From: Streptomyces sp.
GTDB taxonomy: Bacteria > Actinomycetota > Actinomycetes > Streptomycetales > Streptomycetaceae
Direction: 5' to 3'
DNA length: 55,367 bases
Assembly (NCBI RefSeq): GCF_031181705.1
Contig: NZ_JAPSKN010000020.1
Span: 1 to 55,367, forward strand
The notes beneath the pieces are model-generated. The model was not told the DNA's origin. It saw nothing but the letters and a program-made list of their open reading frames with translations, and did not search any database. This document shows positions 2,553 to 33,616 of this stretch, in pieces. How positions within the stretch are numbered: position 1 is the stretch's first letter; the number at the start of each line of letters is the position of its first letter. The position numbers were made by a program, and so were the translations under genes.

Positions 2553-2984
2553 ATGGTGCAGCGCACCTTGCTCAACGGCAAGATCCACCGAGCCACCGTC
2601 ACCCAGGCCGATCTGCACTACGTAGGGTCCCTGACGATCGATCAGGACCTGATGGACGCCGCCGACATCACCGAGGGCGAGCAGGTCCACGTGGTCGACA
2701 TCGACAACGGCGCCCGGCTCACCACCTACGCCATCACCGGCGCACGCGGCACCGGCGTCATCGGCGTCAACGGGGCCGCCGCCCACCTCGTCCACCCCGG
2801 CCACCTCGTGATCATCATGTCGTTCGCCGCGCTCGACGAGGCCGAACGGGCCCTCCACCGGCCCCGCGTCGTCCACGTCGACAGGGCCAACCGGATCCTC
2901 GCGCTCGGCGCGGACCCGGCCGAGCCGGTGCCCGGGGCGCCGGAGCAGTACTCGGGAGCCGTCACCCAGCAGAAGGGGAACTGA
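2553..2984 (+). CDS. panD: aspartate 1-decarboxylase (pyruvoyl-dependent)
   Basis: 143 residues, about the usual length for bacterial PanD. It aligns throughout with the family: [21 protein letters not shown] near the start contains the Gly-Ser self-processing site (Ser26), whose Ser becomes the pyruvoyl group. TTYAI and the [11 protein letters not shown] block follow. The enzyme makes beta-alanine from L-aspartate. It is the first gene after a perfect iron box and is followed 3 bp later by mbtH. It is therefore very likely a dedicated supply of beta-alanine for the peptide rather than the pantothenate-pathway copy. The first NRPS adenylation domain in the operon has a beta-Ala-like specificity code, which supports this. 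Confidence 0.93.
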
Positions 2985-2987
2985 GCC

Positions 2988-3206
2988 ATGGCCAACCCGT
3001 TCGACGACGACAGCGGCACCTTCCGCGTACTGGTCAACGACGAGGGCCAGTACTCGCTGTGGCCCGACTTCGCGCCCGTACCGGCCGGCTGGGAGAGCGT
3101 GCACGGCCCGGACACCCGGGCCGCCTGCCTGGAGCACATCGAGCGGCACTGGACGGACATGCGCCCGCGCAGCCTGGCCGAGGCCATGCGCGGAGCCGGC
3201 GACTGA
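2988..3206 (+). CDS. MbtH-like NRPS accessory protein
   Basis: 72 residues with the family signature almost intact: [32 protein letters not shown], and [10 protein letters not shown] at the end. MbtH proteins bind and activate adenylation domains of partner NRPSs. This is the only copy in the window, so it probably serves several adenylation domains here. Its TGA overlaps the ATG of the first NRPS (TGATG at 3204-3208), which suggests translational coupling. Confidence 0.95.
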
Positions 3207-6200
3207 TGGCGCCCCGCCCGGCCGTGGAGGACGTCCTCCCCCTGTCCCCGACCCAGGAGGGCATGGTCTTCCACGCCCTGTACGACGAGCACGCCCCGGA
3301 CGTCTACACCGGCCGGCTCGTCATCCGGCTCGAAGGGCCCCTGGATTCGGGCCGGTTGCGCGCGGCCGCGGACGCCCTGCTGGCCCGGCACGCCAACCTC
3401 CGGGCCGCCTTCCGCACCCAGCGGTCCGGCCGGCCGGTCCAGGTGATCGCCCGCGGCGTGCGCACCCCGTGGCGCCACACGGACCTGTCCGGCCTGCCGC
3501 CCGCCGAGCGGCAGGAGGCGTTCGAGGACCTGCTCGCCCGGGACCGGGAGGCCCGCTTCGACCTGGCCCGCCCGCCGCTGCTGCGCGTCCGGCTGGTGGC
3601 CTTCGGGGACCAGGACCACCGGCTGCTGATCTCCTCCCACCACCTGCTCTGGGACGGCTGGTCCGCGCCCGTGCTGGTCCGCGAGCTGTTCCGCCTCTAC
3701 ACCTCGGGTGGTGACCCGGCCGTCCTGCCCCCGGTACGGCCCTACCGCGACTACCTCGCGTGGCTGGCCCGCCAGGACCGCGCGGCCGCCGAACAGGCCT
3801 GGCGGGACGCCCTCCAGGACCTCGACGAGCCGTGCCTCCTCGCCCCCGCGGCCCGCGACCTGCCCGCCGAACAGCCCGGGCGGCACGTCGTGGAACTGCC
3901 CGAGCGGGAGACCGAGGCCCTCACCGCCACCGCCCGCGCGCACGGCGTGACCGTCAGCACGGTGCTGCAGGGCCTGTGGGCGGTGCTGCTCGCCCGGCAC
4001 ACCGGCCGGCTCGACGTGGTCCTCGGCGCCACGGTGTCCGGCCGCGACGCCGACGTGCCCGGCATCGAGTCGATGGTCGGCCTGTTCATCACCACCCTGC
4101 CGGTCCGCGTGCGGTTACGCCCCGCCGAACCGCTCAGCGGCCTGCTCCGGCGGATCCAGGCCGAGCGGTCGGCCCTGCTCGGCCACGAGCACCTCGGCCT
4201 GGCCGGCATCCAGCGGGCCGCCGGGCACGACCTGCTCTTCGACACGCTGCTGGTGTTCGAGAGCTACCCCATCGACGACGACGGCATCGCCGACGCCCTC
4301 GGCCCCGACGGCCCCCGCATGACCGAGGTGTCGGCCCACGACGCCACGCACTATCCACTGACCCTCACCGCACTGCCCGGCGACCGGCTCACCCTCACCT
4401 TCAGCCACCGCCCCACGGCGCTCGACGAGGCGACGGTGACCGGCATCGCGGCCGGCCTGCACCGGCTCGTCCGGACGTTCACAAAGGAGCCCGACCAGTT
4501 GGTGGGGCGGCTCGACACCGCCCCGGCCGACGCGCTGCGCGCCGCCGCGGGGGAACGCCCCGACCAGGAGGGGAGCTTCGCCGCACACGAGGCGCACGGC
4601 CGGTACGCGCGGCACACCACCGTCCGCGACCTCTTCGAGGACCAGGCCGCCCGCACGCCCCACGCCTGCGCCGTCCACCACGGTGACACCACCCTCACCT
4701 TCGCCGAACTCGACGATGCCGCCGACGTGCTGGCCGCCTCCCTGCTCGTCCGCGGCGCCGGACCCGAGACGATCGTGGCCGTCGCCCTGCCACGCGGAGC
4801 GGACCTCGTCATCGCCCTGCTCGCCGTCCTCAAGGCCGGGGCGGCCTGCATGCCCCTCGACCCGGCCTACCCGCCCGGGCGCATCGCCCTCATGCTCGAA
4901 GACGCCCGGCCCCCGCTCGTGGTGAGCGACCCGGACACGGCCCGGCGCCTCGCCCTCGACCCCGAGTCGGTCTGCCATCCCGGGGAGAGCGGCGAGCGGG
5001 CCACCGCGACACCGCGCCCGCCGCTGTCACCCGACCACCCTGCCTACGTCGTCTTCACCTCCGGCTCCACCGGCCGCCCCAAGGGCGTGCTCGGCACCCA
5101 GCGCGCCCTGGCCAACCGGCTCGCCTGGGGAAGGGAACTGACGGACGGTCCGGGCGGGGCGCGCGTCGCCAAGAGCCCGATCAGCTTCATCGACGGACTG
5201 ACCGAACTGCTCGGCGCGCTGGTCGCGGGCGAGGCCGTGGCCCTCGCCGACGACGCGTCGTCCGGCGACCCGACCGCGCTGGCCGCGCTGGCCGACCGGC
5301 ACGGGGCCACCGTGCTCACCGCGGTGCCCAGCCTCCACGGCACCCTGGTGGAGTCCACCCCGCCGGGCGGCTTCGCCTCGGTGCGCACCTGGATCTCCAG
5401 CGGCGAACCCCTCACCACCGACCTGGCCCGCCGGCTCACCGCCCGCTGGCCCGGCTCCCGCCTCGTCAACCTCTACGGCTGCTCGGAAGCGGCGGGCGAC
5501 AGCCTGGCCCACGTGTACACCCCCGAGGACGGCACGACACCCCAGCCGACCGGGGAAGCACGGACACCGCCGCGCCAGGACCCCCGCACCGCCTCACTGA
5601 GCGGACCTCGCCAGGACGCCACGGCGCTGAGCGGGCCTCGCTCCGACGCCGTCTCGCCGGGTGACCCGGGCCGAGGGGGTGTTTCGCCGGTCGGGCCGGG
5701 TGCTGACGCCGCCCTGCCGGGCGGGCCGGCCGTCGGCACCGCCCTGCCGGGCGGGCCGGCCGTCGGCGCCGTCTCGCCGGGTGGGCCCGTCACCCACGTC
5801 GCGTCACCTGGCCGGCCGGCCACCGGTTCCGTCCCGCTCGGGCGGCCCATCGCCGGTACCCGGGTGTACGTGCTGGACCCGTTCCTGCGCCCGGCGCCCG
5901 TCGGCGCGGCCGGGGAGTTGTACCTCGCCGGGGACGGGCTCGCCCGTGGGTACCTCGGTCAGCCCGGGCGTACCGCCGAACGGTTCGTCGCCGACCCCTT
6001 CGGTCCGCCCGGCAGCCGCCTCTACCGCACCGGCGACCTCGCCCGGCTCCGGCCCGACGGCACGGTCGAGTTCCTGGGCCGGGCCGACCAGCAGGTCAAG
6101 ATCCGCGGCTTCCGCGTCGAGCCCGGAGAGGTCGAGGCCGTGGCCCGTGCCCTGCCGGGCGTGCGCCGGGCCGCGGTCGTGGCCCGCCAGGACGGCACGG

Positions 6201-6732
6201 CGCCGCGGCGGCTCGTGGCGTACGTCGAGCCCGAGCCGGACGGCGACGACGTACCGGACCCGGCCGCTCTGCGGCACGCGCTCGCCGAGCGTCTCCCCGC
6301 GCCCTGCGTCCCGGCCGCCGTGGTGGTCCTGCCGGCGCTGCCGCACACCCCGAGCGGCAAGCTCGACCGCCGCGCGCTGCCCGCCCCCGACTTCACCCGG
6401 GCGAGCACCTTCGACCCGCCGCGCACCGAGCCGGAGAAGGTGCTGTGCGCACTGTTCGCCGAGATCCTCGGCATCGAACGGGTGGGCGTCCACGACGACT
6501 TCTTCACCCTCGGCGGCGACAGCGTCGTCTCGGTCCGGCTGGCCGACCGCGCCCGCAGGGCGGGACTCGCCCTGTCCCCCCGGGACGTTTTCACCCACCG
6601 CACCCCGGCAGGTCTCGCCCGCGCACGGCCGGACGGCGCCGCACCGCAGGAGCAGTTCACCGCGACCGCTGCGCCGCTGGTGTCGCTCAGCCCGTCGCAG
6701 CTCGACAACGTCAAGGCGAGGTGGAGGAGCCG

Positions 6733-6736
<4 letters not shown>
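3206..6736 (+). CDS. NRPS, C-A-T module, predicted beta-alanine
   Basis: 1176 residues from the ATG overlapping the mbtH stop. Condensation domain about 8-440 with HHLLWDG near 145. Adenylation domain about 470-1060 with A3 [11 protein letters not shown] and A10 TPSGKLDR. Carrier domain about 1070-1140 with phosphopantetheine Ser1106 in GGDSVVS. The ten-residue code read by aligning to GrsA PheA is I-D-T-T-I-S-L-G-D-K. It lacks Asp235 and has Asp236, like known beta-Ala codes (V-D-W-V-I-S-L-A-D-K), and panD sits two genes upstream. Odd features: a Pro/Gly-rich decapeptide-repeat insertion at about 775-880 between motifs A5 and A6, and a single TTA leucine codon at 4115-4117. No epimerase or thioesterase domain. 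Substrate is inferred, domains are clear. Confidence 0.92.
4115..4117 (+). promoter_or_regulatory. in-frame TTA leucine codon (bldA-dependence candidate)
   Basis: Leu304 of the first NRPS, in the condensation domain, is encoded by TTA (CGG TTA CGC). TTA is very rare in Streptomyces and is read only by the bldA tRNA, whose level rises with development. I saw no other in-frame TTA codon in the siderophore genes when scanning by eye. It would add a developmental check on an otherwise iron-controlled operon. Confidence 0.8.
5590..5860 (+). repeat. 30-bp tandem repeats coding a decapeptide-repeat insertion in an adenylation domain
   Basis: Within the first NRPS the DNA repeats with a 30-bp period. 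Units 5711-5740 and 5741-5770 differ at one base. The flanking units 5771-5800, 5801-5830 and 5831-5860 are more degenerate, and weaker copies extend back to about 5600. Each unit encodes ten residues, for example ALPGGPAVGT, ASPGRPATGS and finally VPLGRPIAGT. The last is the normal conserved segment before motif A6 of adenylation domains. The array therefore looks like repeated duplication and drift of that native segment, in frame. Confidence 0.85.
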
Positions 6737-19247
<12,511 letters not shown>

Positions 19248-19265: not shown

Positions 19266-22200
19266 GTGACGCAGCACCCCCCGACCGCGGACGAGCTGCT
19301 CCGTACGGTCACCGACACATTGGGCCCGGGCACCCCGCCGGGCGACGACGACAGCCTCATCGCCTGGGGCCTGGACTCCATCACGCTGATGAGGATCGCC
19401 GGCTCCTGGCGCAGGCGGGGCGTCAAGGTCGGCTTCGCCGAACTCGCGCGCGAACCCACCCTGCGCGCCTGGCGATCCCTGCTCGCGTCCCGGGCCCCCG
19501 CCTCGGCCGAGCCGGCCACCGAGGCCCGGGCCGAAGTCCCGCCCGAGGCCCCGGCCCCCGAACCGGGCGAGCCCTTCCCGCTCGCCGTGATGCAGCACGC
19601 CTACTGGATCGGCCGCGGCGACGACACCACCCTCGGCTCCGTCGCCGCCCATCTGTACGTCGAGTTCGACGGCTTGGGTGTCGACCCGGAACGGCTCGAC
19701 ACCGCCGTACGGGCCCTGGCCCGGCGGCACGGCATGCTCCGGGCCCGGTTCACCGACGACGGCCGCCAGCAGATCCTGCCCGAACTCACCCGCCCGGCCA
19801 CGGCCGTCAACGACCTGCGGGACCTGGACGACGAGACCGCTGCGGCCGAACTGGAGGACGTCCGGCACTCCTCCTCGCACGCTCGCCTCGACGTCGCCGC
19901 CGGCGAGGTGTTCTCCGTGCGACTCTCCCTGCTCCCCGAGGGCCGCAGCCGGCTGCACGTGGACGTCGACATGCTCGCCGCGGACGCCCTCAGCTACCGC
20001 GTCCTGCTCTCCGACCTCGCGCAGCTCTACCGCGACCCCGGCGCCGCCCTGCCACCGATCCGCACCAGCTACCCCGCCTACCTGGCGGAGCGGGCCGAGC
20101 TGCGGCGGCTGAGCCGGGAGCAGGCGCAGCAGTGGTGGCGCAGGCGGGTGCCCGAGCTGCCCAGCGCGCCGGACCTGCCGCTGGTGCCCGAGGCGGAACG
20201 GGCCGACCCGACCCGGGTGACGCGCCGGCACCACTGGCTGCCGCCGGAGGAGAAGCGGCGCCTGGCCGCCCGCGCCCACCAGCACGGGCTGACCCCCGCC
20301 ATGGCCGTCGCGACCGCCTTCTCGGAGGTGCTGGCCGCCCACAGCGGTCAGCCGCGCTTCCTGCTGAACGTCCCGATGTTCGACCGTCGCGGCGCCCACC
20401 CCGACACCGACCTGCTCGTCGGCGACTTCACCAGTTCGGTCCTGCTCGACGTGGACCTGGCCGAGCCGGCCTCGTTCACCGAGCACGCCCGCCGGCTCCA
20501 GGACCGGATGCACACCGATGCCGCGCACGCCGACTACTCCGGGGTGGAGGTGCTGCGCGACCTGACCCGGCAGCGCGGTGAACAGGTCCTCGCGCCCGTG
20601 GTGTTCACCAGCGCCCTCAACCTGGGAGAGCTGTTCGACGCGGATGTGCGCGACTCCTTCGGCACCCCGGTGTGGATCGTCTCGCAGGGCCCGCAGGTGC
20701 TGCTCGACGCCCAGGTCACCGAGGTCGACGGCGGACTGCTCGTCAACTGGGACGTACGCGAGGACGCCTTCCCCGCGGGGCTGGTCGACGCGATGTTCGC
20801 CGCGTTCCACGGACTCGTCACCCGGCTCGGCACCGAGGACGACGTCTGGGACCGGCCGGTCCCCGCCCTGCTGCCCGTGCAGCAGTCGGCGGTGCGCAGG
20901 GCGGTGAACGCCACCGACGCCCCCCGCAGCCACCGCCTCCTGCACGAGGGCTTCTTCGCCCGCGCGGCCGAGCGGCCCGACGCGCCGGCCCTGCTGTGGG
21001 GAACGGAAGGCGCCCTGACCTACGGTCAGCTGGCGGACCGGGCCCTGCGCTGCGCCGCCGCCCTCGCGGCGCGGGGAGTTCGGCCGGGCGACACCGTCGC
21101 GGTCAGCCTCCCCAAGGGACCCGGCCAGATCACCGCCGTCCTCGGCGTGCTGGCCGCCGGGGCCGCGTACGTACCGGTCGGCGTCGAGCAGCCCCCCGCC
21201 CGCCGCGACCGCATCCGCGCCACCGCCGGCCACCGCCTCACCCTCACCGACAGGTCCACCGACCGGCCCCCGGGCGACCCCGCGGCCGGGGACCGCCTGG
21301 CCGTCCCGGACGCGCTCCGTCACGACCCGCTGCCCGCACCCGTCCCGGTGGACGAGGAACAGGTCGCCTACGTCCTGTTCACCTCCGGCTCCACGGGCGA
21401 GCCCAAGGGCGTCGAGGTGCCGCACCGGGCGGCCATGAACACCATCGACGACCTCGACGCGCGCTTCGCCGTGGGCCCCGCCGACCGCTGCCTCGCCCTG
21501 TCCGCGCTCGACTTCGACCTCTCCGTCTACGACGTGTTCGGGCTGCTGAGCGCGGGCGGCGCGGTGGTGCTGGTCGACGAGGCCGACCGCCGTGAGGCCC
21601 GGCCGTGGGCCGAGCTGGTGCGCCGGCACCGGGTGACGCTCCTCAACTGCGTCCCGCCGCTGCTGGACATGCTGCTCCTGGCCACCGGCCCCGGTGAACT
21701 CGCCGGACTGCGCGCGGTGCTGCTGGGCGGGGACCGGGTGGGCACCGACCTGCCCGGGCGGCTCGCCGAGCGGGCACCCGGCTGCCGGTTCGCCGGCCTC
21801 GGCGGCACCACCGAGACCGCCATCCACTCCACCGTCTGCGAGGTCGCGGACGCCCGGGTGCCCGCGCGCTGGCGGGCCGTGCCGTACGGCACCCCGCTGC
21901 GCAACGTGCGCTGCCGGGTCGTCGACCCGCGCGGCCGGGACTGCCCCGACTGGGTGCCGGGCGAGCTGTGGATCGGCGGGGACGGCCTGGCGCTCGGCTA
22001 CCGGGGCGACCCGGAGCGCACGGCCGCGAAGTTCACCGAGGCCGACGGCGTGCGCTGGTACCGCACCGGCGACCTCGCCCGCTACTGGCCGGACGGCACG
22101 CTGGAGTTCCTCGGCCGCCGCGACCACCAGGTGAAACTGCGCGGCTTCCGCATCGAACTCGGCGAGGTGGAGACGGGACTCGCCGGGCACCCGGCGGTGC

Positions 22201-22769
22201 GGCGCGCCGTCGCGGGCCTGACGGACGGCCCCGGAGTCCAGCTGGCGGCCGCGGTGGCCGCCGGTCCGGGCACGACGGAGGAGGAGCTGCGGCGGTGGGC
22301 GCGCGCGGTGCTGCCGCCGCACATGGTCCCGGCCCGGATCGCCGTCGCCGCGGAGCTGCCGCTCACCGCCAACGGCAAACTGGACCGCCGGGCCGTCCGG
22401 GCGCTGTGGGAGACGCGCGGGCCGGGGGAGGAGGGGCACCGGGCACCCGGCAGCGCCCTGGAGACGGTCGTCGCCCGGGTGTGGGCCGACGTCCTCGGCG
22501 CCGCACACGTGGGCCTCGACGACGGGTTCTTCGCCCTCGGCGGGGACTCGGTGCTCGCCACCGTGATCGTGAGCCGGCTGCGGGAGGCCCTGGACACCTC
22601 CGAGGTGTCGGTGCGCGCCCTGTTCGCGACCCTCACGCCGGGCGGCATGGCCAAGCGGCTGGCCGCCGAGGAGCACGTCCCGGGGCGCCTGGAACAGGTC
22701 GCCGCGTTCCACCTGGAGATCGAGGGCATGTCGGCGGAGGAGGTCGACTCGGCGCTGCGCGACACCTGA
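19266..22769 (+). CDS. NRPS, ArCP-Cy-A-T, aryl-oxazoline (salicyl-Ser/Thr) starter synthetase
   Basis: 1167 residues from GTG 19266, with GGAGG at 19256-19260 and 18 bp after the previous gene. The N-terminal aryl carrier domain has Ser38 in GLDSITLM. A cyclisation domain at about 95-520 carries the DMLAADALS signature (Asp235, Asp240) in place of HHxxxDG. The adenylation domain at about 560-1060 has code D-L-Y-N-L-G-L-I-H-K. It resembles Cys codes of Cy-linked A domains but has Gly301 and His331 as in Thr codes, so Ser or Thr is favoured over Cys. Carrier Ser1095 in GGDSVLA follows. Architecture matches MbtB: salicylate from a separate ligase is loaded on the ArCP, then condensed and cyclised to a hydroxyphenyl-oxazoline. 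It is the starter but is encoded last in the operon. Confidence 0.93.
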   Translation: MTQHPPTADELLRTVTDTLGPGTPPGDDDSLIAWGLDSITLMRIAGSWRRRGVKVGFAELAREPTLRAWRSLLASRAPASAEPATEARAEVPPEAPAPEPGEPFPLAVMQHAYWIGRGDDTTLGSVAAHLYVEFDGLGVDPERLDTAVRALARRHGMLRARFTDDGRQQILPELTRPATAVNDLRDLDDETAAAELEDVRHSSSHARLDVAAGEVFSVRLSLLPEGRSRLHVDVDMLAADALSYRVLLSDLAQLYRDPGAALPPIRTSYPAYLAERAELRRLSREQAQQWWRRRVPELPSAPDLPLVPEAERADPTRVTRRHHWLPPEEKRRLAARAHQHGLTPAMAVATAFSEVLAAHSGQPRFLLNVPMFDRRGAHPDTDLLVGDFTSSVLLDVDLAEPASFTEHARRLQDRMHTDAAHADYSGVEVLRDLTRQRGEQVLAPVVFTSALNLGELFDADVRDSFGTPVWIVSQGPQVLLDAQVTEVDGGLLVNWDVREDAFPAGLVDAMFAAFHGLVTRLGTEDDVWDRPVPALLPVQQSAVRRAVNATDAPRSHRLLHEGFFARAAERPDAPALLWGTEGALTYGQLADRALRCAAALAARGVRPGDTVAVSLPKGPGQITAVLGVLAAGAAYVPVGVEQPPARRDRIRATAGHRLTLTDRSTDRPPGDPAAGDRLAVPDALRHDPLPAPVPVDEEQVAYVLFTSGSTGEPKGVEVPHRAAMNTIDDLDARFAVGPADRCLALSALDFDLSVYDVFGLLSAGGAVVLVDEADRREARPWAELVRRHRVTLLNCVPPLLDMLLLATGPGELAGLRAVLLGGDRVGTDLPGRLAERAPGCRFAGLGGTTETAIHSTVCEVADARVPARWRAVPYGTPLRNVRCRVVDPRGRDCPDWVPGELWIGGDGLALGYRGDPERTAAKFTEADGVRWYRTGDLARYWPDGTLEFLGRRDHQVKLRGFRIELGEVETGLAGHPAVRRAVAGLTDGPGVQLAAAVAAGPGTTEEELRRWARAVLPPHMVPARIAVAAELPLTANGKLDRRAVRALWETRGPGEEGHRAPGSALETVVARVWADVLGAAHVGLDDGFFALGGDSVLATVIVSRLREALDTSEVSVRALFATLTPGGMAKRLAAEEHVPGRLEQVAAFHLEIEGMSAEEVDSALRDT

Positions 22770-22838: not shown

Positions 22839-23849
22839 CTACTCGTCCAGCTTGGCGAAGCCGGTCTCCAGGTTGTCCAGCGCCCACGGGATGCCCAGCA
22901 CGGACGGGCTGCGCAGCTGGCTGATGGTCGCCACGTCGGTCACGACGTAGCGGTCCTTCTTCACCGCGGACATGTTCTTCACCAGTGCGCTGGACTCGAA
23001 GGCCTTCCTCAGCTCCGGTGTGGTGAAGGCGATGACGACCAGGTCCGCGTCGAGCTTGTCGAGCTGCTCGAAGGACAGCTCACCGGTGGGGCTGCCGCTG
23101 ACCGTCTTGATGTTCTTCACCGACGGGGTGAGGCTCAGCCCGACCTCGCTCATCAGCTTCGCCGCGAAGTCGTCCTCCGAGGCGATGGTGTAGATCCTGG
23201 CCGGGGTGTTGCCGATGGACAGGCTGTAGGTCCTGCCCGCCAGCCCGGGGTGCTCCGCCTTGACCTCGGCGATGCTGTCCTCGGTCTCCCTGACGGCCTT
23301 GTCCGCCTGCTCCTGTCTGCCGACGGCCTTCGCCACCACCCGGACGTGCTCCTGCCAGGTCTGCTTGCCCCACGCCGTCTCGTAGCCGATGGTCGGCGCC
23401 ACCGCGGAGAGCTTCTCGTAGTTCTTGTCCAGGGTGAAGTCGGAGGTGGCGAGGATCAGATCGGGGCGGAGCGCCGCGACCTCCTCGAAGTCCACCCCGT
23501 TCATGGTGTTCAGCAGCCTGGTCTTCTCGGTGTCGACCCGGTCCTTCAGCCAGGGGTGGACCCCGTCGGCGGCGAAGGCGTCCTTGGAGACGGCGATCGG
23601 CGTGACCCCCAGCGCGTACAGGGCGTCGACGTCGTCGGTGCCGCCGTCGCCGATCACCACGATCCGCTCGGGCTCCTTGGTGATCTTCGTGCTGCCGAAC
23701 TTGTGCTTGACGGTGACGGGGAAGGCGGACGAGGCGTCCGCCTTCGCGTCGCCGGAGGACGGGGCGGAGTCGTCCTCGACGGAACCGCAGGCTGCCAACC
23801 CGGCGGCCAGGGTGACGGTGAGAAGGGTGGTGAGGAACTTTCTCGGCAT
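22839..23849 (-). CDS. iron-siderophore ABC transporter substrate-binding lipoprotein
   Basis: 336 residues from ATG 23849, preceded by AAGGGA; an upstream in-frame ATG at 23885 is less likely. The N-terminus is a lipoprotein signal with lipobox LAACGS. The body is a FecB/FhuD-type periplasmic-binding-protein-3 domain: EPERIVVIGDGGTDDVDALYALG near the start, FEEVAALRPDLILA mid-protein, and FEQLDKLDADLVVIAF towards the end. It should capture the ferric siderophore outside the membrane and deliver it to a permease. No permease or ATPase genes are in the window, so they are either upstream of it or shared with another system. It has its own iron box and is convergent with the NRPS operon. Confidence 0.92.
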   Translation of the reverse strand: MPRKFLTTLLTVTLAAGLAACGSVEDDSAPSSGDAKADASSAFPVTVKHKFGSTKITKEPERIVVIGDGGTDDVDALYALGVTPIAVSKDAFAADGVHPWLKDRVDTEKTRLLNTMNGVDFEEVAALRPDLILATSDFTLDKNYEKLSAVAPTIGYETAWGKQTWQEHVRVVAKAVGRQEQADKAVRETEDSIAEVKAEHPGLAGRTYSLSIGNTPARIYTIASEDDFAAKLMSEVGLSLTPSVKNIKTVSGSPTGELSFEQLDKLDADLVVIAFTTPELRKAFESSALVKNMSAVKKDRYVVTDVATISQLRSPSVLGIPWALDNLETGFAKLDE

Positions 23850-23974: not shown

Positions 23975-24928
23975 TTACGGACGCGCCGTCAGATACCCCC
24001 CCATCGCGCGGAAGTAGTCGTTCGCCGCGCACTCCGTGCCGTCCTGCGTGCGCAGCCGCCGGACGACGAGCCCCGGGCAGCGGCCGGTGTGCGCCTCGGG
24101 GCCGGCCACGATGACCACGCCGTCGCCCTCACGGATGAAGATCCGCCCGGGTGTGCCGCCGTAGCGGCCCTCGGACACGGCGGCCGAGGTGATCCGCAGG
24201 CGCTGCCCGCGGTGGAAGGTGTAGGCGTTCGGATAGGGGTCCGACTGGGCGCGCACCAGCCGTTCCAGCCGTTCGGCGGGCCAGGTCCAGTCGATGCGGC
24301 TGTCCTCCTCGGAGCGCTTGTGGAAGAAGCTGGCCCGGGCGCGGTCCTGGGGCAGCCACCGCCCGGCGTCCCGCCCGGAGGCGATCAGGCCGAGGGACTC
24401 GCGCACGATCGGGGCGATGAGGTCGACGGTGCGGTGGAACAGGTCGGTCGCGGTGTCCTGCGGCCCGACGGGCACCGCGCGCTGCACCAGGATGTCTCCG
24501 GCGTCGAGTTCGCCGTTCATGCGGTGCGCGGTCACGCCCACGCGCTCCTCGCCGTTGAGGAGTGCCCAGATGATCGGCGAGAAGCCGGCGTAGGACGGCA
24601 GCAGCGAGTCGTGGATGTTCAGGGTGCCGTGCGGAGGGAGGTCGAAGACCTCCGGGGGCAGCCAGGTGCGCCAGTTGTTGGCCACGATGAGGTCCGGGCG
24701 GGCCGCCCGCAGCGCGTCGAGGAGTTCGGGGTCGTCCGGCCGGTTGCGCAGGAGGACGGGGACGTCGTGCTTCGCGGCGAGTTCGGCGACGGAGTCGTCC
24801 CAGATCTTCTCGTAGGCGTGGTCGCTCTTGGGGTGGGTGACGACGAGGGTGACCTCGTGGTCGGAGTCCAGCAGGGCCTGGAGCGTGCGGTGACCCCAGG
24901 TCTGATAGCCGAACATGGCGACGCGCAT
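23975..24928 (-). CDS. N5-hydroxyornithine formyltransferase (CchA-like)
   Basis: 317 residues from ATG 24928, with GAGAGGGAG upstream; an in-frame ATG at 24955 would run back towards the iron box. It belongs to the methionyl-tRNA formyltransferase fold: VAMFGYQTWGHRTLQALL start, LIVANNWRTWLPPEVF, then the conserved HGTLNIHDSLLPSYAGFSP with the catalytic Asn-His-Asp region. A formyltransferase C-terminal domain begins near residue 205. In coelichelin-type clusters this enzyme transfers formyl from 10-formyl-tetrahydrofolate to N5-hydroxyornithine. It is divergent from the ornithine monooxygenase and shares an iron box with it. An NRPS module in the window has the exact formyl-hydroxyornithine code. 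The three observations agree. Confidence 0.9.
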   Translation of the reverse strand: MRVAMFGYQTWGHRTLQALLDSDHEVTLVVTHPKSDHAYEKIWDDSVAELAAKHDVPVLLRNRPDDPELLDALRAARPDLIVANNWRTWLPPEVFDLPPHGTLNIHDSLLPSYAGFSPIIWALLNGEERVGVTAHRMNGELDAGDILVQRAVPVGPQDTATDLFHRTVDLIAPIVRESLGLIASGRDAGRWLPQDRARASFFHKRSEEDSRIDWTWPAERLERLVRAQSDPYPNAYTFHRGQRLRITSAAVSEGRYGGTPGRIFIREGDGVVIVAGPEAHTGRCPGLVVRRLRTQDGTECAANDYFRAMGGYLTARP

Positions 24929-24957
24929 GCGGTTCTCCCTCTCCGGCGGCTCCATTG

Positions 24958-25012: not shown

Positions 25013-26356
25013 GTGAACTCACCGCTCACGGGATCGGACACCACGGACACCACCTACGACGTCCTCGGAGTAGGCTTCGGGCCGTCAAATCTCGCCCTGG
25101 CCATAGCGATCGAGGAACACAACGCGGGAGTCCCGCCGGAGCGCCGGCTCAACGCCCTCTTCCTGGAACGCCAGCCGGGCTTCGGCTGGCACCGGGGCAT
25201 GCTCATCGACGACGCCACGATGCAGGTGTCGTTCCTCAAGGACCTCGTCACCCTGCGCGATCCGGCCAGCGACTACAGCTTCCTGTGCTTCCTGCGCGAA
25301 CGCGGCCGGCTCATCGACTTCCTGAACCAGAAGACGCTCTTCCCACTGCGGGTGGAGTTCCACGAGTACTTCGAGTGGGCCGCCGCCCGCGTGCGGCATC
25401 TGGTGGCCTACGACCGCGAGGTGACCGCCGTCGACCCGGTGCGCGACGCGTCGGGCACCGTGACCGGCTTCGACGTGGTCTGCGGCCACTCCGGCGTGAG
25501 GTACCGCGCCGGCGACCTCAGCGTCGCCGTCGGCCTGGAGCCGCACGTGCCGCCCGGGGTCGAGCTGTCCGAACGGGTCTGGCACAACAGCCAGTTGATG
25601 CCCCGGGTTGCCGAACTGCGGGGCCGCCGCACGCCGGTGCGCCGCGCCGTCGTCCTGGGCGCGGGCCAGAGCGCCGCCGAGACGGTCGACTACCTGCACC
25701 GCTCCTTCCCCGAGGCCGAGGTCTGCTCGGTCTTCGCCAAGTACGGCTACACCCCGGCCGACGACAGCCCGTTCGCCAACCGCATCTTCGACCCGCAGGC
25801 GGTGGACGTGTACTTCGGCGCACCCTCCGAGGTCAAACAGTCCCTCTTCGACTACCACCGCTCCACCAACTACTCCGTCGTCGACATGGACCTCATCGAG
25901 GCCCTGTACGCGACCTCCTACCAGGAGAAGGTCACCGGCCGGGAGCGGCTGCGGTTCCTCAACGTCTCCCGCATCCGGGACGTCCGCACGCGTGACGACG
26001 GCTCCCTGGACGTCGTGGTGGAGTTCCTGCCGACCGGGGAGCAGCGGGTGCTGGAGGCCGACGTGCTCGTGCACGCGACCGGCTACCGCCCCCGGGACCT
26101 CACCACGCTGCTCGGTGAGGCGGCGAAGGTCTGCCTGCGCGACGACGAGGACGCCATCCGCGTCCGACGCGACCACCGCGCCGAGACCGCCCCGGACGTG
26201 ACGGCCGGCATCTACCTCCAGGGCGGCACGGAACACACCCACGGCCTGACCTCGACCCTGCTGTCGACGACGGCGATCCGCGCGGGGGAGATCCACCGCT
26301 CCCTGCTGGACCGGCACGGCGGCCGATCGCGCCCCTGTGCCGAACCGGGGGCATGA
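25013..26356 (+). CDS. L-ornithine N5-monooxygenase (CchB/SidA family)
   Basis: 447 residues from GTG 25013, chosen because GGGAGG lies at 24997-25002. An in-frame ATG at 24983 has no ribosome binding site and lies 6 bp from the iron box. FAD-binding GVGFGPSNLALAIA is at about 20, then WHRGMLIDDATMQVSFLKDL, the NADPH-binding VVLGAGQSAAE near 210, and the C-terminal HATGYRP and GLTSTLLSTTAIRAGEI. All are hallmarks of flavin N-hydroxylases acting on the ornithine side chain. It makes N5-hydroxyornithine, which the neighbouring formyltransferase converts to the substrate of the last NRPS module. Its TGA overlaps the next ATG. Confidence 0.94.
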   Translation: MNSPLTGSDTTDTTYDVLGVGFGPSNLALAIAIEEHNAGVPPERRLNALFLERQPGFGWHRGMLIDDATMQVSFLKDLVTLRDPASDYSFLCFLRERGRLIDFLNQKTLFPLRVEFHEYFEWAAARVRHLVAYDREVTAVDPVRDASGTVTGFDVVCGHSGVRYRAGDLSVAVGLEPHVPPGVELSERVWHNSQLMPRVAELRGRRTPVRRAVVLGAGQSAAETVDYLHRSFPEAEVCSVFAKYGYTPADDSPFANRIFDPQAVDVYFGAPSEVKQSLFDYHRSTNYSVVDMDLIEALYATSYQEKVTGRERLRFLNVSRIRDVRTRDDGSLDVVVEFLPTGEQRVLEADVLVHATGYRPRDLTTLLGEAAKVCLRDDEDAIRVRRDHRAETAPDVTAGIYLQGGTEHTHGLTSTLLSTTAIRAGEIHRSLLDRHGGRSRPCAEPGA

Positions 26357-30635: not shown

Positions 30636-32471
30636 TCACCCGAGGGCCCGGTCCAGGTTGAAGGCCGCGCTGATGAGCGCGAGGTGCGTGAAGGCCTGCG
30701 GGAAGTTGCCCTGCTGCTCCCCGGTGTGGCTGATCTCCTCGGCGTACAGGCCGAGATGGTTGGCGTAGGTCAGCATCTTCTCGAAGGCGAGACGCGCCTC
30801 GTCGATCCGGCCGGCGTGCACCAACGCCTCGACGTACCAGAACGAGCAGATGGAGAACGTCCCCTCGTCGCCGCGCAGTCCGTCGGGGCTGGAGCGCGGG
30901 TCGTAGCGGTAGACGAGCGAGTCGGACACCAGCTCCTCGGTCAGGGCGTCCAGCGTCGACAGCCACTTCGGGTCGGTCGGGGCGATGAACTTCGTCAGCG
31001 GCATCATCAGCACGGCCGCGTCCAGCACGTCACCGTCCTCGTGCTGCACGAAGGCCCGGCGCCGCTCGGACCACCCCCGGCTCATGATCCGCCGGTAGAT
31101 CGTGTCGCGGCACTCCCGCCAGCGGGGCAGGTCGGCGGGCAGCCCGCGCCGGTTGGCCATCCGGATGGCCCGCTCGATCGCCACCCAGCACATCAGCCGT
31201 GAGTACAGGAAGTTCCTGCGGCCACCCCGGGTCTCCCAGATGCCCTCGTCGGGCTGGTCCCAGTGCGTGCACACCCAGTCCACCAGGGCGCACACGTCGT
31301 CCCACTGGTCGCTGGAGACGGGCTGGGCCCACTTGTCGTAGAGGTAGATCGAGTCGATCAGCGCGCCGTAGATGTCGAGCTGCAGCTGGTCGGCCGCCGC
31401 GTTGCCGACCCGGACCGGCGCCGAACCGTGGTGGCCCTCCAGGTGGTCCAGCTCCCGCTCGGGCAGTTCCGTGCGCCCGTCGATGCCGTACATGATCTGC
31501 AGCGGACCGGAGTGCGTGCCGTCCCCGGGGCTGATGTGCCGGGACACGAACCGCATGAACGCCTCGGCCTCCCCGGTGAAGCCCAGCCTGAGCAGGGCGT
31601 AGACACAGAAGGCCGCGTCCCGCACCCACACGTAGCGGTAGTCCCAGTTGCGTTCGCCGCCGAGCCGCTCCGGCAGACTCGTCGTGGGCGCGGCGACGAT
31701 CGCCCCGGTCGGCGCGTAGGTGAGCAGCTTCAGGGTCAGCGCCGAGCGGTGCACCATCTCCCGCCAGCGGCCCTTGTACCGGGACGCCGACAGCCAGCGC
31801 CGCCAGTAGGCCACGGTCGCAGTGAACTGCTCCTCGGCCTCCGTGTGCGCGCACCGGCGGGGCGTCACGTCGCCGCCGACCTTGTCCAGCGCGAACACCG
31901 CCGACTCGCCCTCGGAGAGCTTGAAGTCCCCGCGCACGTCCGGCCCGTCGGCCTCCAGCGGCACGGTCGCGGTCAGCGCGAGCGACAGCCGCCCGGCCTG
32001 GAAGACGGCCGCCTCGCCGGTCAGCCGTACGGTGTGCGGCCGGGTGCCGTAGTCGAACCGCGGCGCCACACGCGTACGGAACGGGATCGAGCCGCGCACG
32101 CACACCACCCGTCGGATCAGCCGGTGCCGCTCGGCCTCGGCCCGCCCGCCGCCGACCGGCATGAAGTCCTGCACCTCGCCGACGCCGTCCTCGGTGAAGA
32201 ACCGGGTGATCAGCACGTTCGTGTCGGGGAAGTAGAACTGCTTGGTCCGGGCCGGCACGGCCGCCGCCAGCTCGAAGCAGCCGCCGCGCTCGGCGTCCAG
32301 GATCGCGGCGAAGACGCTCGGAGCGTCGAAGGAGGGGCAGCAGTACCAGTCGATCGTGCCGTCGGTCCCCACCAGGGCCACGCTGCGCAGATCGCCGATC
32401 AGCCCGTGCTCCGCGATCGGCACGTACCGCCGCCCGCCCGGCCCGCCCCGGTCCTGTGCCGTTCCGCCCAT
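30636..32471 (-). CDS. glycoside hydrolase family 15 protein (glucoamylase/trehalase-like)
   Basis: 611 residues, ATG at 32471. The N-terminal beta-sandwich carries IAEHGLIGDLRSVALVGTDGTIDWYCCP, the standard start of bacterial GH15-like proteins. The (alpha/alpha)6 barrel has NWDYRYVWVRDAAF and EGIWETRGGRRNFLYSRLMCWVAIERA, the latter with the probable catalytic Glu. C-terminal EGTFSICSFWYVEAL holds the second acid. No signal peptide was seen, so it is probably cytoplasmic. In actinobacteria such proteins include trehalases as well as glucoamylases; the substrate cannot be fixed. It converges on the His-rich protein gene with a 3-bp gap and no clear terminator. Confidence 0.88.
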   Translation of the reverse strand: MGGTAQDRGGPGGRRYVPIAEHGLIGDLRSVALVGTDGTIDWYCCPSFDAPSVFAAILDAERGGCFELAAAVPARTKQFYFPDTNVLITRFFTEDGVGEVQDFMPVGGGRAEAERHRLIRRVVCVRGSIPFRTRVAPRFDYGTRPHTVRLTGEAAVFQAGRLSLALTATVPLEADGPDVRGDFKLSEGESAVFALDKVGGDVTPRRCAHTEAEEQFTATVAYWRRWLSASRYKGRWREMVHRSALTLKLLTYAPTGAIVAAPTTSLPERLGGERNWDYRYVWVRDAAFCVYALLRLGFTGEAEAFMRFVSRHISPGDGTHSGPLQIMYGIDGRTELPERELDHLEGHHGSAPVRVGNAAADQLQLDIYGALIDSIYLYDKWAQPVSSDQWDDVCALVDWVCTHWDQPDEGIWETRGGRRNFLYSRLMCWVAIERAIRMANRRGLPADLPRWRECRDTIYRRIMSRGWSERRRAFVQHEDGDVLDAAVLMMPLTKFIAPTDPKWLSTLDALTEELVSDSLVYRYDPRSSPDGLRGDEGTFSICSFWYVEALVHAGRIDEARLAFEKMLTYANHLGLYAEEISHTGEQQGNFPQAFTHLALISAAFNLDRALG

Positions 32472-32778
32472 GACAGCCTCCCTGCCCCGGTACGCGCCTC
32501 AGCCCCAGCGTAGGACGGCCGGCCCGGCACCGCCGTCGCGCCGTGGGGACCGGGGGACGGCCCCCGGGGTCGTGGTCACTCGGTGGGGACCGGTGTCGGC
32601 CTGCTGGGGGACGCGGACATCCCGTGGGGCCGGCGGATGGCCCGCCGGGCCCCGCGGTCGCAGTGTGGGCACCCGCCGACGGCCCGCCGGGCCCCGCGGT
32701 CGCACCGTCAGCACGGCGAACGACCCGCCGGGCCCGCTCACTCCGTGAGCACGGCGAACGACCCGCCGCGACCCGCGG
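32472..32778. repeat. intergenic region with imperfect tandem GC-rich repeats
   Basis: No gene is supported in these 307 bp. From about 32638 the sequence repeats a unit of roughly 38-46 bp built on CCCGCCGGGCCCCGCGGTC followed by a CACCGT(G/C)AGCACGGCGAACG segment: near 32640, 32680, 32722 and 32758. The last copy runs into the final codons and stop of the DeoR gene. A looser GTGGGGACCGG repeat lies at 32542 and 32582. It looks like duplication of the 3' end of the regulator gene. Confidence 0.65.
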
Positions 32779-33558
32779 TCACACCGTGAGCACCCGCAGC
32801 CCGGCCTCCTCGAATCCCCGTACCGTCTCCGGGGCGGCCGCCGTGTCCGTGACCAGCGTGTCCACCGCCTCCGCCGCGCAGATCCGGGCGAACGCCCGCT
32901 GCCCCAGCTTGCTGGAGTCGGCCGCCACGACCACCCGCTCGGCCCGTTCGCACAGCAACCGGTTGATCGCGGCCTCCGCCTCGTCGTGCGCCGCGGCACC
33001 GTGCGTGACGTCGAAGGCGACGACGCCGAGCACCGCCACGTCGACCGTGACCTGCCCGAGCACCCCGTCCGCGAGCGGCCCCACCAGCTCGTACGACTGC
33101 GCCCGCGCGACACCGCCGGTCAGCACGATCTTGAACTGGGGACGCACGGCCAGCTCGCAGGCGATGTTCAGCGCGTTCGTCACCACGGTCAGCGCCGGCG
33201 AGCCGGACGCCAGGTCCCCGCGCACGGCCAGGGCCCGGGCCACCTCCGTGGTGGTCGTGCCGCCGGTCAGCCCGACCGCCTCCCCGGGCGCGACCAGATC
33301 CGCGACGGCCTTGGCGATCCGCTGCTTCTCGCAGGCGCGCCGGGCCGTCTTGTAGCGCAGCGGCAGCTCGTAGGACACGCCGTGCACGACCGCGCCGCCC
33401 CGCGTGCGCACCAGCATCTGCTGCTCGGCCAGCCCGTCGAAGTCACGGCGGATCGTCGCCGCCGACACCCCCAGCTCCCGGGCCGCGTCCTCGACGTCCA
33501 GCCGGCCGCGCTCCACGAGCAGTTCCAGCAGCGCCTTCCAGCGGGCGTCACGCGACAT
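32779..33558 (-). CDS. DeoR/GlpR-family transcriptional regulator
   Basis: 259 residues from ATG 33558, preceded by GGTGGAGG. The longer in-frame start at 33663 would run into the divergent promoter. N-terminal DeoR-type helix-turn-helix: LDVEDAARELGVSAATIRRDFDGL, then RGGAV. The C-terminal sugar-phosphate sensor domain (DeoRC) has LTGGTTTTEVARAL, TNALNIA and LTGG. It is divergent from the SIS-domain and aldolase genes, so it probably represses them and responds to a phosphorylated sugar of that pathway. The 3' end lies inside a tandem repeat. Confidence 0.88.
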   Translation of the reverse strand: MSRDARWKALLELLVERGRLDVEDAARELGVSAATIRRDFDGLAEQQMLVRTRGGAVVHGVSYELPLRYKTARRACEKQRIAKAVADLVAPGEAVGLTGGTTTTEVARALAVRGDLASGSPALTVVTNALNIACELAVRPQFKIVLTGGVARAQSYELVGPLADGVLGQVTVDVAVLGVVAFDVTHGAAAHDEAEAAINRLLCERAERVVVAADSSKLGQRAFARICAAEAVDTLVTDTAAAPETVRGFEEAGLRVLTV

Positions 33559-33616
33559 CCGCACCTCCACCTCTCGATCTCCGGGCGACCTTAACTCAGC
33601 CGATGCGCCCGCATGC

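Follow-up and report, generated by a model that had tools for sequence, protein, structure and literature searches.

The adenylation (A) domain of the first nonribosomal peptide synthetase (NRPS) in this stretch of Streptomyces DNA (the window, 55,367 nucleotides) carries a tandem array of ten-residue units, which is likely an in-frame 30-bp minisatellite, hypervariable in length and mostly neutral, lying within a permissive, predicted surface loop of a normally folded domain. A domains are a heavily studied and engineered class, in which the spacing between motifs A5 and A6 is nearly fixed. In the course of events that we favor, duplication of the DNA for SVPLGRPIAG would have seeded the array in the ancestor of one clade, and units may since have been gained and lost through replication slippage or unequal recombination. 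The reading frame would survive such changes because the unit length is a multiple of three bases, and selection would hold the frame and the last copy, which is part of the fold, while the upstream copies drift. The features on which the analysis rests are as follows.

2553..2984, plus strand: aspartate decarboxylase (PanD family), the likely supplier of beta-alanine for the module (putative role)
2985..3206, plus strand: MbtH-like protein gene, its stop sharing one base with the NRPS start
3206..6736, plus strand: first NRPS gene, condensation-adenylation-carrier (C-A-T), 1176 aa
5507..5830, plus strand: whole expanded loop, 108 residues from GDSL to VPLGRP (4-12 residues in unexpanded orthologues)
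5588..5827, plus strand: tandem array of eight degenerate 30-bp / 10-residue units, TASLSGPRQD to VASPGRPATG, from sequence and translation
5708..5767, plus strand: closest pair of units, AALPGGPAVG and TALPGGPAVG, with one mismatch in 30 bases
5828..5857, plus strand: conserved (mother) copy SVPLGRPIAG, present whether or not an orthologue has the array
6721-11298, plus strand: second NRPS gene, start uncertain
11295-19247, plus strand: third NRPS gene
19266-22769, plus strand: fourth NRPS gene
22839-23849, minus strand: periplasmic binding protein of iron-siderophore type
23975-24955, minus strand: formyltransferase
25013-26356, plus strand: lysine/ornithine N-monooxygenase

The array and its host module

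The Pfam order of the first NRPS gene (condensation, AMP-binding, AMP-binding C-terminal, PP-binding) is that of a C-A-T module, and its core motifs C HHxxxDG, A3, A5, A7, A8, A10 and T are all intact, reading HHLLWDG, TSGSTGRPKG, NLYGCSE, YRTGD, GRADQQVKIRGFRVEPGE, PHTPSGKLD and GGDSV, respectively. The minus-strand frames 6022-11634 (1870 aa) and 11019-18830 (2603 aa) lie opposite the NRPS genes and were rejected as genes, being typical of GC-rich mirror frames, and minus-strand frames over the array were dismissed because codon use ranks the plus-strand NRPS genes first, under a score whose training set was the downstream NRPS genes. In the frame of the gene at 3206-6736, the array falls between YGCSEAAGDSL (A5) and GELYLAG (A6), where the distance from NLYG to the end of GELYLAG reaches 155 residues. 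Its units read, in order, TASLSGPRQD, ATALSGPRSD, AVSPGDPGRG, GVSPVGPGAD, AALPGGPAVG, TALPGGPAVG, AVSPGGPVTH and VASPGRPATG, followed by the conserved SVPLGRPIAG. The original prediction of about eight or nine 30-bp copies, expanded in frame between A5 and A6 and ending on an ordinary conserved segment, thus agrees, in its coordinates too, with the translation, which gives eight units plus the conserved copy.

Sequence identity at a lag of 30 bases is 0.57 in the array, compared with a mean of 0.349 and a maximum of 0.436 in 2,000 codon shuffles, and the values at lags of 60, 90 and 120 bases (0.536, 0.525 and 0.519) all exceed the best value at any lag in 300 shuffles (0.467). The window array is made up of head-to-tail tandem units above chance, as an intragenic variable-number tandem repeat (VNTR) or minisatellite is. 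A single base of 30 separates the unit at 5708 from that at 5738, in keeping with the earlier expectation that the array is partly recent; the remaining neighbor pairs match at only 14-21 of 30 bases, so most of the array appears to be old. A mostly old array with a younger core is also indicated by Tandem Repeats Finder (TRF), since its detection is confined to the stretch with the least degeneracy (5686-5787, 3.4 copies, 83% matches). When the eight units are set in register against the conserved copy, a mean of 16.0 of 30 bases match, compared with 10.8 for codon-shuffled versions of that copy, of which 11 in 5,000 reach 16.0; shifting the register by 3 bases still leaves a match of 14.7 of 30, and values of 7.9-10.9 are obtained with the other eight in-frame shifts. 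The conserved SVPLGRPIAG segment probably seeded the array by duplication, which the register comparison, as one test of one array, backs but does not prove.

The window copy number is given as assembled, in a draft of 247 contigs that is 81% complete, and repeat-assembly error is an obvious alternative source of the array or of its copy number. We regard this as very improbable, given that arrays are found in independent genomes, e.g. on the 8.1-Mb contig of P0010 and the 0.72-Mb contig of P0015 (L009), and that most of the units are distinct enough to be assembled one by one.

Length variation and origin of the loop

The expanded loop stands out against A domains at large. A regular-expression scan, which is blind to A domains with unusual motifs, covered 89 records (80 loci, the window itself, and eight pieces of its own genome that in part duplicate it) and measured 188 A5-A6 stretches from YG, of which 183 span 49-62 residues. 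The five outlying stretches, of 73 (L010), 85 (L020), 153 (the window and its own-genome piece L001) and 243 residues (L009), all belong to one orthologue. Among the best 120 of 1,711 proteins, 132 A5-A6 stretches were measured and 16 exceed 66 residues; 14 of these are the window orthologue, and the long spans of the other two (P0075 and P0117) were judged by eye to be regular-expression artefacts and were not counted as expansions.

A tree was built from 58 single-module orthologues chosen from the same best 120 of 1,711 proteins, multi-module proteins being excluded, by a quick LG+G4 analysis with loop columns removed and SH-aLRT as the only support measure; the five most distant orthologues (56-57% identical) served as the outgroup, some of whose branches are long. 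These orthologues do not all share one conserved insert lacking a period, the pattern that would have spoken against the original prediction: the loop is 4-12 residues long in 44 of the 58, which lack the insert, and 28-251 residues in the other 14, and the carriers differ from one another (28 residues in four proteins, 40, 68, 108 in the window, 140, 160, 164, 193 in two proteins, 198 and 251). Thirteen of the 14 long loops, including that of the window, form one clade (SH-aLRT 100), the sister rows of which (P0042 and P0049) carry 10 residues. Two changes in loop length suffice on this tree and two are forced, one for the 13-member clade and one for P0043. From this topology, the long loop probably has a single origin in the clade's ancestor, and the arrays within it may be partly separate in origin, since the period differs across the clade (best lag 10, 20, 31 or 40 residues). 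P0043 (S. spinosisporus) has independently expanded a 21-bp / 7-residue unit (best lag 7) among neighbors that carry 8-10 residues; in the corresponding species locus (L020, 12257-12355) a 21-bp array of 4.7 copies encodes GGGKRDD / GDGKRDD units in the same A5-A6 loop. Because a different 7-residue repeat (GDGKRDD-like) expanded there separately, the A5-A6 loop appears to be a permissive site of this A domain.

Nine of the ten complete loops of at least 40 residues (P0043 included), plus that of P0016, a metagenomic sequence left out of the tree as its open frame stops within the array, show a periodicity that none of 300 shuffles reaches; the 68-residue loop of P0004 is not periodic, its value being matched by 174 of 300 shuffles. 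Loop alignments between species are unsure. P0010 and P0011, with flanks 98.8% identical, differ by a single 58-residue indel, and P0005 and P0006, with flanks 99.0% identical, by a single 20-residue indel; the loops of P0007 and P0010 (98.2% identical) are of the same length. P0016 is 96.5% identical to the window upstream and shares its first units, with three copies of ATALSGPR[PS]D to the window's one, the two extra copies being ATALSGPRPD. It comes from a JGI contig of 5,420 bases; the character of its sequence changes within the array and the frame then stops there, which may be due to a genuine frameshift or to an error of assembly. Length therefore differs between close relatives in three pairs (flanks 96.5-99.0% identical), as is characteristic of a VNTR, and the proposal that the array is length-variable holds true between relatives in the form of these indels and extra copies. 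Against P0004, the nearest complete relative (92.3%), the window shows gaps of 23, 11 and 6 residues, which are not whole units.

The expansion is a minority state among carriers of the gene. With E 1e-150 as the cut-off for calling an orthologue, 16 of 392 genus genomes taken in an even draw contain it (window genome counted), as do 12 of 394 drawn from the family; the two draws overlap and together give 22 carriers, of which 18 have A5-A6 spans of 55-57 residues, the other four measuring 73, 85, 153 (window) and 243.

Repeats elsewhere in the same clusters provide a further yardstick. TRF (score at least 50) over the window and the orthologous loci L009-L029 returned 108 rows, corresponding to 92 separate arrays; 51 of these were assigned to NRPS frames by a heuristic, and 11 of the 51 score above 90. 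Three of these 11 are the A5-A6 arrays of L009, L020 and the window, protein ends account for six, and the remaining two fall between the C-domain motif and A3, a segment that includes the C-A linker. In the other parts of the A3-A10 interval no array scores above 65. From these positions and scores, short repeats in NRPS tails are ordinary in these clusters and a large one in the A core is not. The heuristic had wrongly placed the window array in an overlapping frame ('Nterm'), and it is the translation that puts it at A5-A6. Among the other repeats seen, a 9-bp repeat (CGACGACTT) at window positions 19208-19244 encodes DDFDDFDDNDG at the C terminus of the third NRPS, and related clusters have NRPS proteins that terminate in AEL / ELAER-type repeats (L012, 16355-16469; L016, 16382-16453). 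Outside the NRPS genes, an array with a period of ~41 bp and 3.8 copies (window 32641-32793) lies between a GH15-type gene (30636-32423, minus strand) and a DeoR-type regulator gene (32779-33570, minus strand), overlapping the 3' end of the latter, and in S. curacoi (L029, 9048-9249) a 30-bp (or 15-bp) array of 6.8 copies stands just 5' of panD.

Predicted fold, codon use and selection

The AlphaFold2 model of the window A domain, based on a 59-row alignment, has a mean pLDDT of 79.9, with 327 of 596 residues at or above 90 and a further 137 at 70-90, and loop residues 315-407 fall below 50. In a Foldseek search of the PDB this model matches the A domains of Txo2, DhbF, EntF, PheA of GrsA, and FscH. 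The model of the S. lomondensis (L009) A domain, from a 53-row alignment, is weaker (mean 68.2); residues 310-392 and 394-499 fall below 50, and it is also low at 294-298, 540-556 and 559-562, outside the array. The models suggest a disordered coil on an ordinary A-domain core, with the reservation that low pLDDT does not prove disorder, and the flexible loop envisaged in the original prediction is borne out to this extent by low-pLDDT loops in both of them. The Pfam A-domain match is split by the array, a caution for annotation wherever domain calling is applied to such genes, and an insert of this position, within the A domain, might be thought a small folded domain of its own, or the mark of an interrupted A domain of a known type. 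Such a reading is scarcely credible here, as the insert consists of low-complexity repeats of low pLDDT and has no Pfam match at E 0.001, and its A5-A6 location is neither of those, a2-a3 and a8-a9, given in the sections of PMC11355689 consulted.

Codon use in the loop departs from that of its gene, GC content at codon positions 1/2/3 being 0.815/0.750/0.833 in the window loop and 0.793/0.543/0.948 in the rest of the gene. The L009 loop behaves likewise (0.833/0.753/0.813), the shift is smaller in the 28-residue loop of L010 (0.821/0.643/0.893), and the L020 repeat has no such shift (0.775/0.525/0.950). Ratios of nonsynonymous to synonymous change (pN/pS) were calculated for the window, L009 and L010 as Nei-Gojobori proportions, uncorrected for multiple hits; together with L020, whose codon use is given above, the DNA covered is that of four of the 14 long-loop orthologues. 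Pooled over the window units the ratio is 0.88; the L009 units give 0.81 as a full set, 0.67 and 0.50 inside each of two alternating classes, and 0.58 when compared as 60-bp dimers. Between loci, the loop gives 0.90 for window-L009 and 0.64 for window-L010, on an unsure alignment, compared with flank values of 0.39 and 0.24 (window-L009) and 0.43 and 0.21 (window-L010). Since the window, L009 and L010 all carry the long loop and their flanks give 0.21-0.43, enzymes with long loops are still constrained.

These values bear on two alternatives. A slightly deleterious expansion on its way to loss of function would account for the frame of P0016 that ends in the array, a case in which assembly error is possible on so short a contig; we consider such a course improbable, in view of the constrained flanks of the long-loop genes, the intact state of the tested motifs, the open downstream NRPS genes, and the lack of any internal stop in the window, L009, L010 and L020. 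An adaptive array, in which the module would be tuned by how long the loop is or what it is made of (through domain movement, solubility, or contact with a partner or MbtH) and which would be kept and varied for that reason, we judge unlikely. None of the 13 complete clade members has a loop shorter than 28 residues, those of the window and L009 are rich in P, G and A, and the values of 0.67 and 0.50 within the L009 unit classes make weak constraint on the loop possible; set against this are lengths that range from 28 to 251 residues with differing sub-repeats, the near-neutral divergence of the window units, and the relaxed codon bias. Because units diverge near-neutrally while the flanks are constrained, tolerance of a mostly neutral minisatellite is favored over a tuned role.

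The siderophore cluster and known systems

Each of 21 orthologous loci (L009-L029) has, upstream, genes like the panD, mbtH, MFS and alpha/beta-hydrolase genes of the window, and with such upstream genes throughout, this appears to be one conserved cluster, with or without the array. Specificity positions 235, 236, 239, 278, 299, 301, 322 and 330 of the A domain read IDTTISLG against a GrsA segment as the reference, and position 331 is A by way of an alignment gap, or D when read ungapped by eye; for the beta-alanine comparison code we take that of bleomycin BlmIV. From these residues together with panD, mbtH and the tailoring genes, the module probably activates beta-alanine within a hydroxamate siderophore cluster, and analogy suggests a formyl-hydroxyornithine siderophore with beta-alanine, similar to exochelin MS, a beta-alanine-containing siderophore made by NRPS. 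Exochelin MS and the kasichelins have in common with the window cluster a probable beta-alanine module and a hydroxyornithine-type tailoring gene. The main text of the kasichelin paper (PMC12305651) has no occurrence of 'aspartate decarboxylase' or of 'formyltransferase'. Among titles and abstract starts in the literature, we found no siderophore product that fits the cluster.

With regard to the array itself, the closest precedents for extra sequence in an A domain are the interrupted A domains (e.g. TioS, TioN, KtzH, MarQ), which, in the sections of PMC11355689 consulted, have a methylase, oxidase or ketoreductase domain inserted, as a rule at a8-a9 and sometimes at a2-a3. The window resembles them in having extra sequence with the fold kept (in the window, as predicted), and differs from them in that its insert, between A5 and A6, is repeat sequence with no recognized domain, no catalytic domain being inserted and the site being neither a2-a3 nor a8-a9. 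The window array is thus an intragenic VNTR at an unusual place and not an interrupted A domain in the accepted sense, as given in the portions of PMC11355689 and PMC11253843 consulted. A bolder idea, which we hold to be rather doubtful, is that the A5-A6 loop is a third insertion site and a natural length dial, where Streptomyces lineages would repeatedly grow and shrink a disordered repeat and so alter core motion or partner contacts. Loops of 10 to 251 residues in related enzymes would offer engineers a candidate permissive site with ready length variants.

Titles and abstract starts in the open literature, subscription journals aside, yielded no account of repeats inside A domains. The short terminal arrays of NRPSs in the orthologous clusters (AEL / ELAER type, DDF) lie at N- or C-termini and not, as the window array does, in a folded domain. 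With bacterial intragenic VNTRs in general the window array has in common head-to-tail, in-frame units whose number varies between relatives; the repeat proteins of which PMC2996958 speaks are at surfaces, whereas the window array is inside an NRPS adenylation core, and repeat expansion can thus occupy a catalytic domain while the rest of the gene stays under selection.
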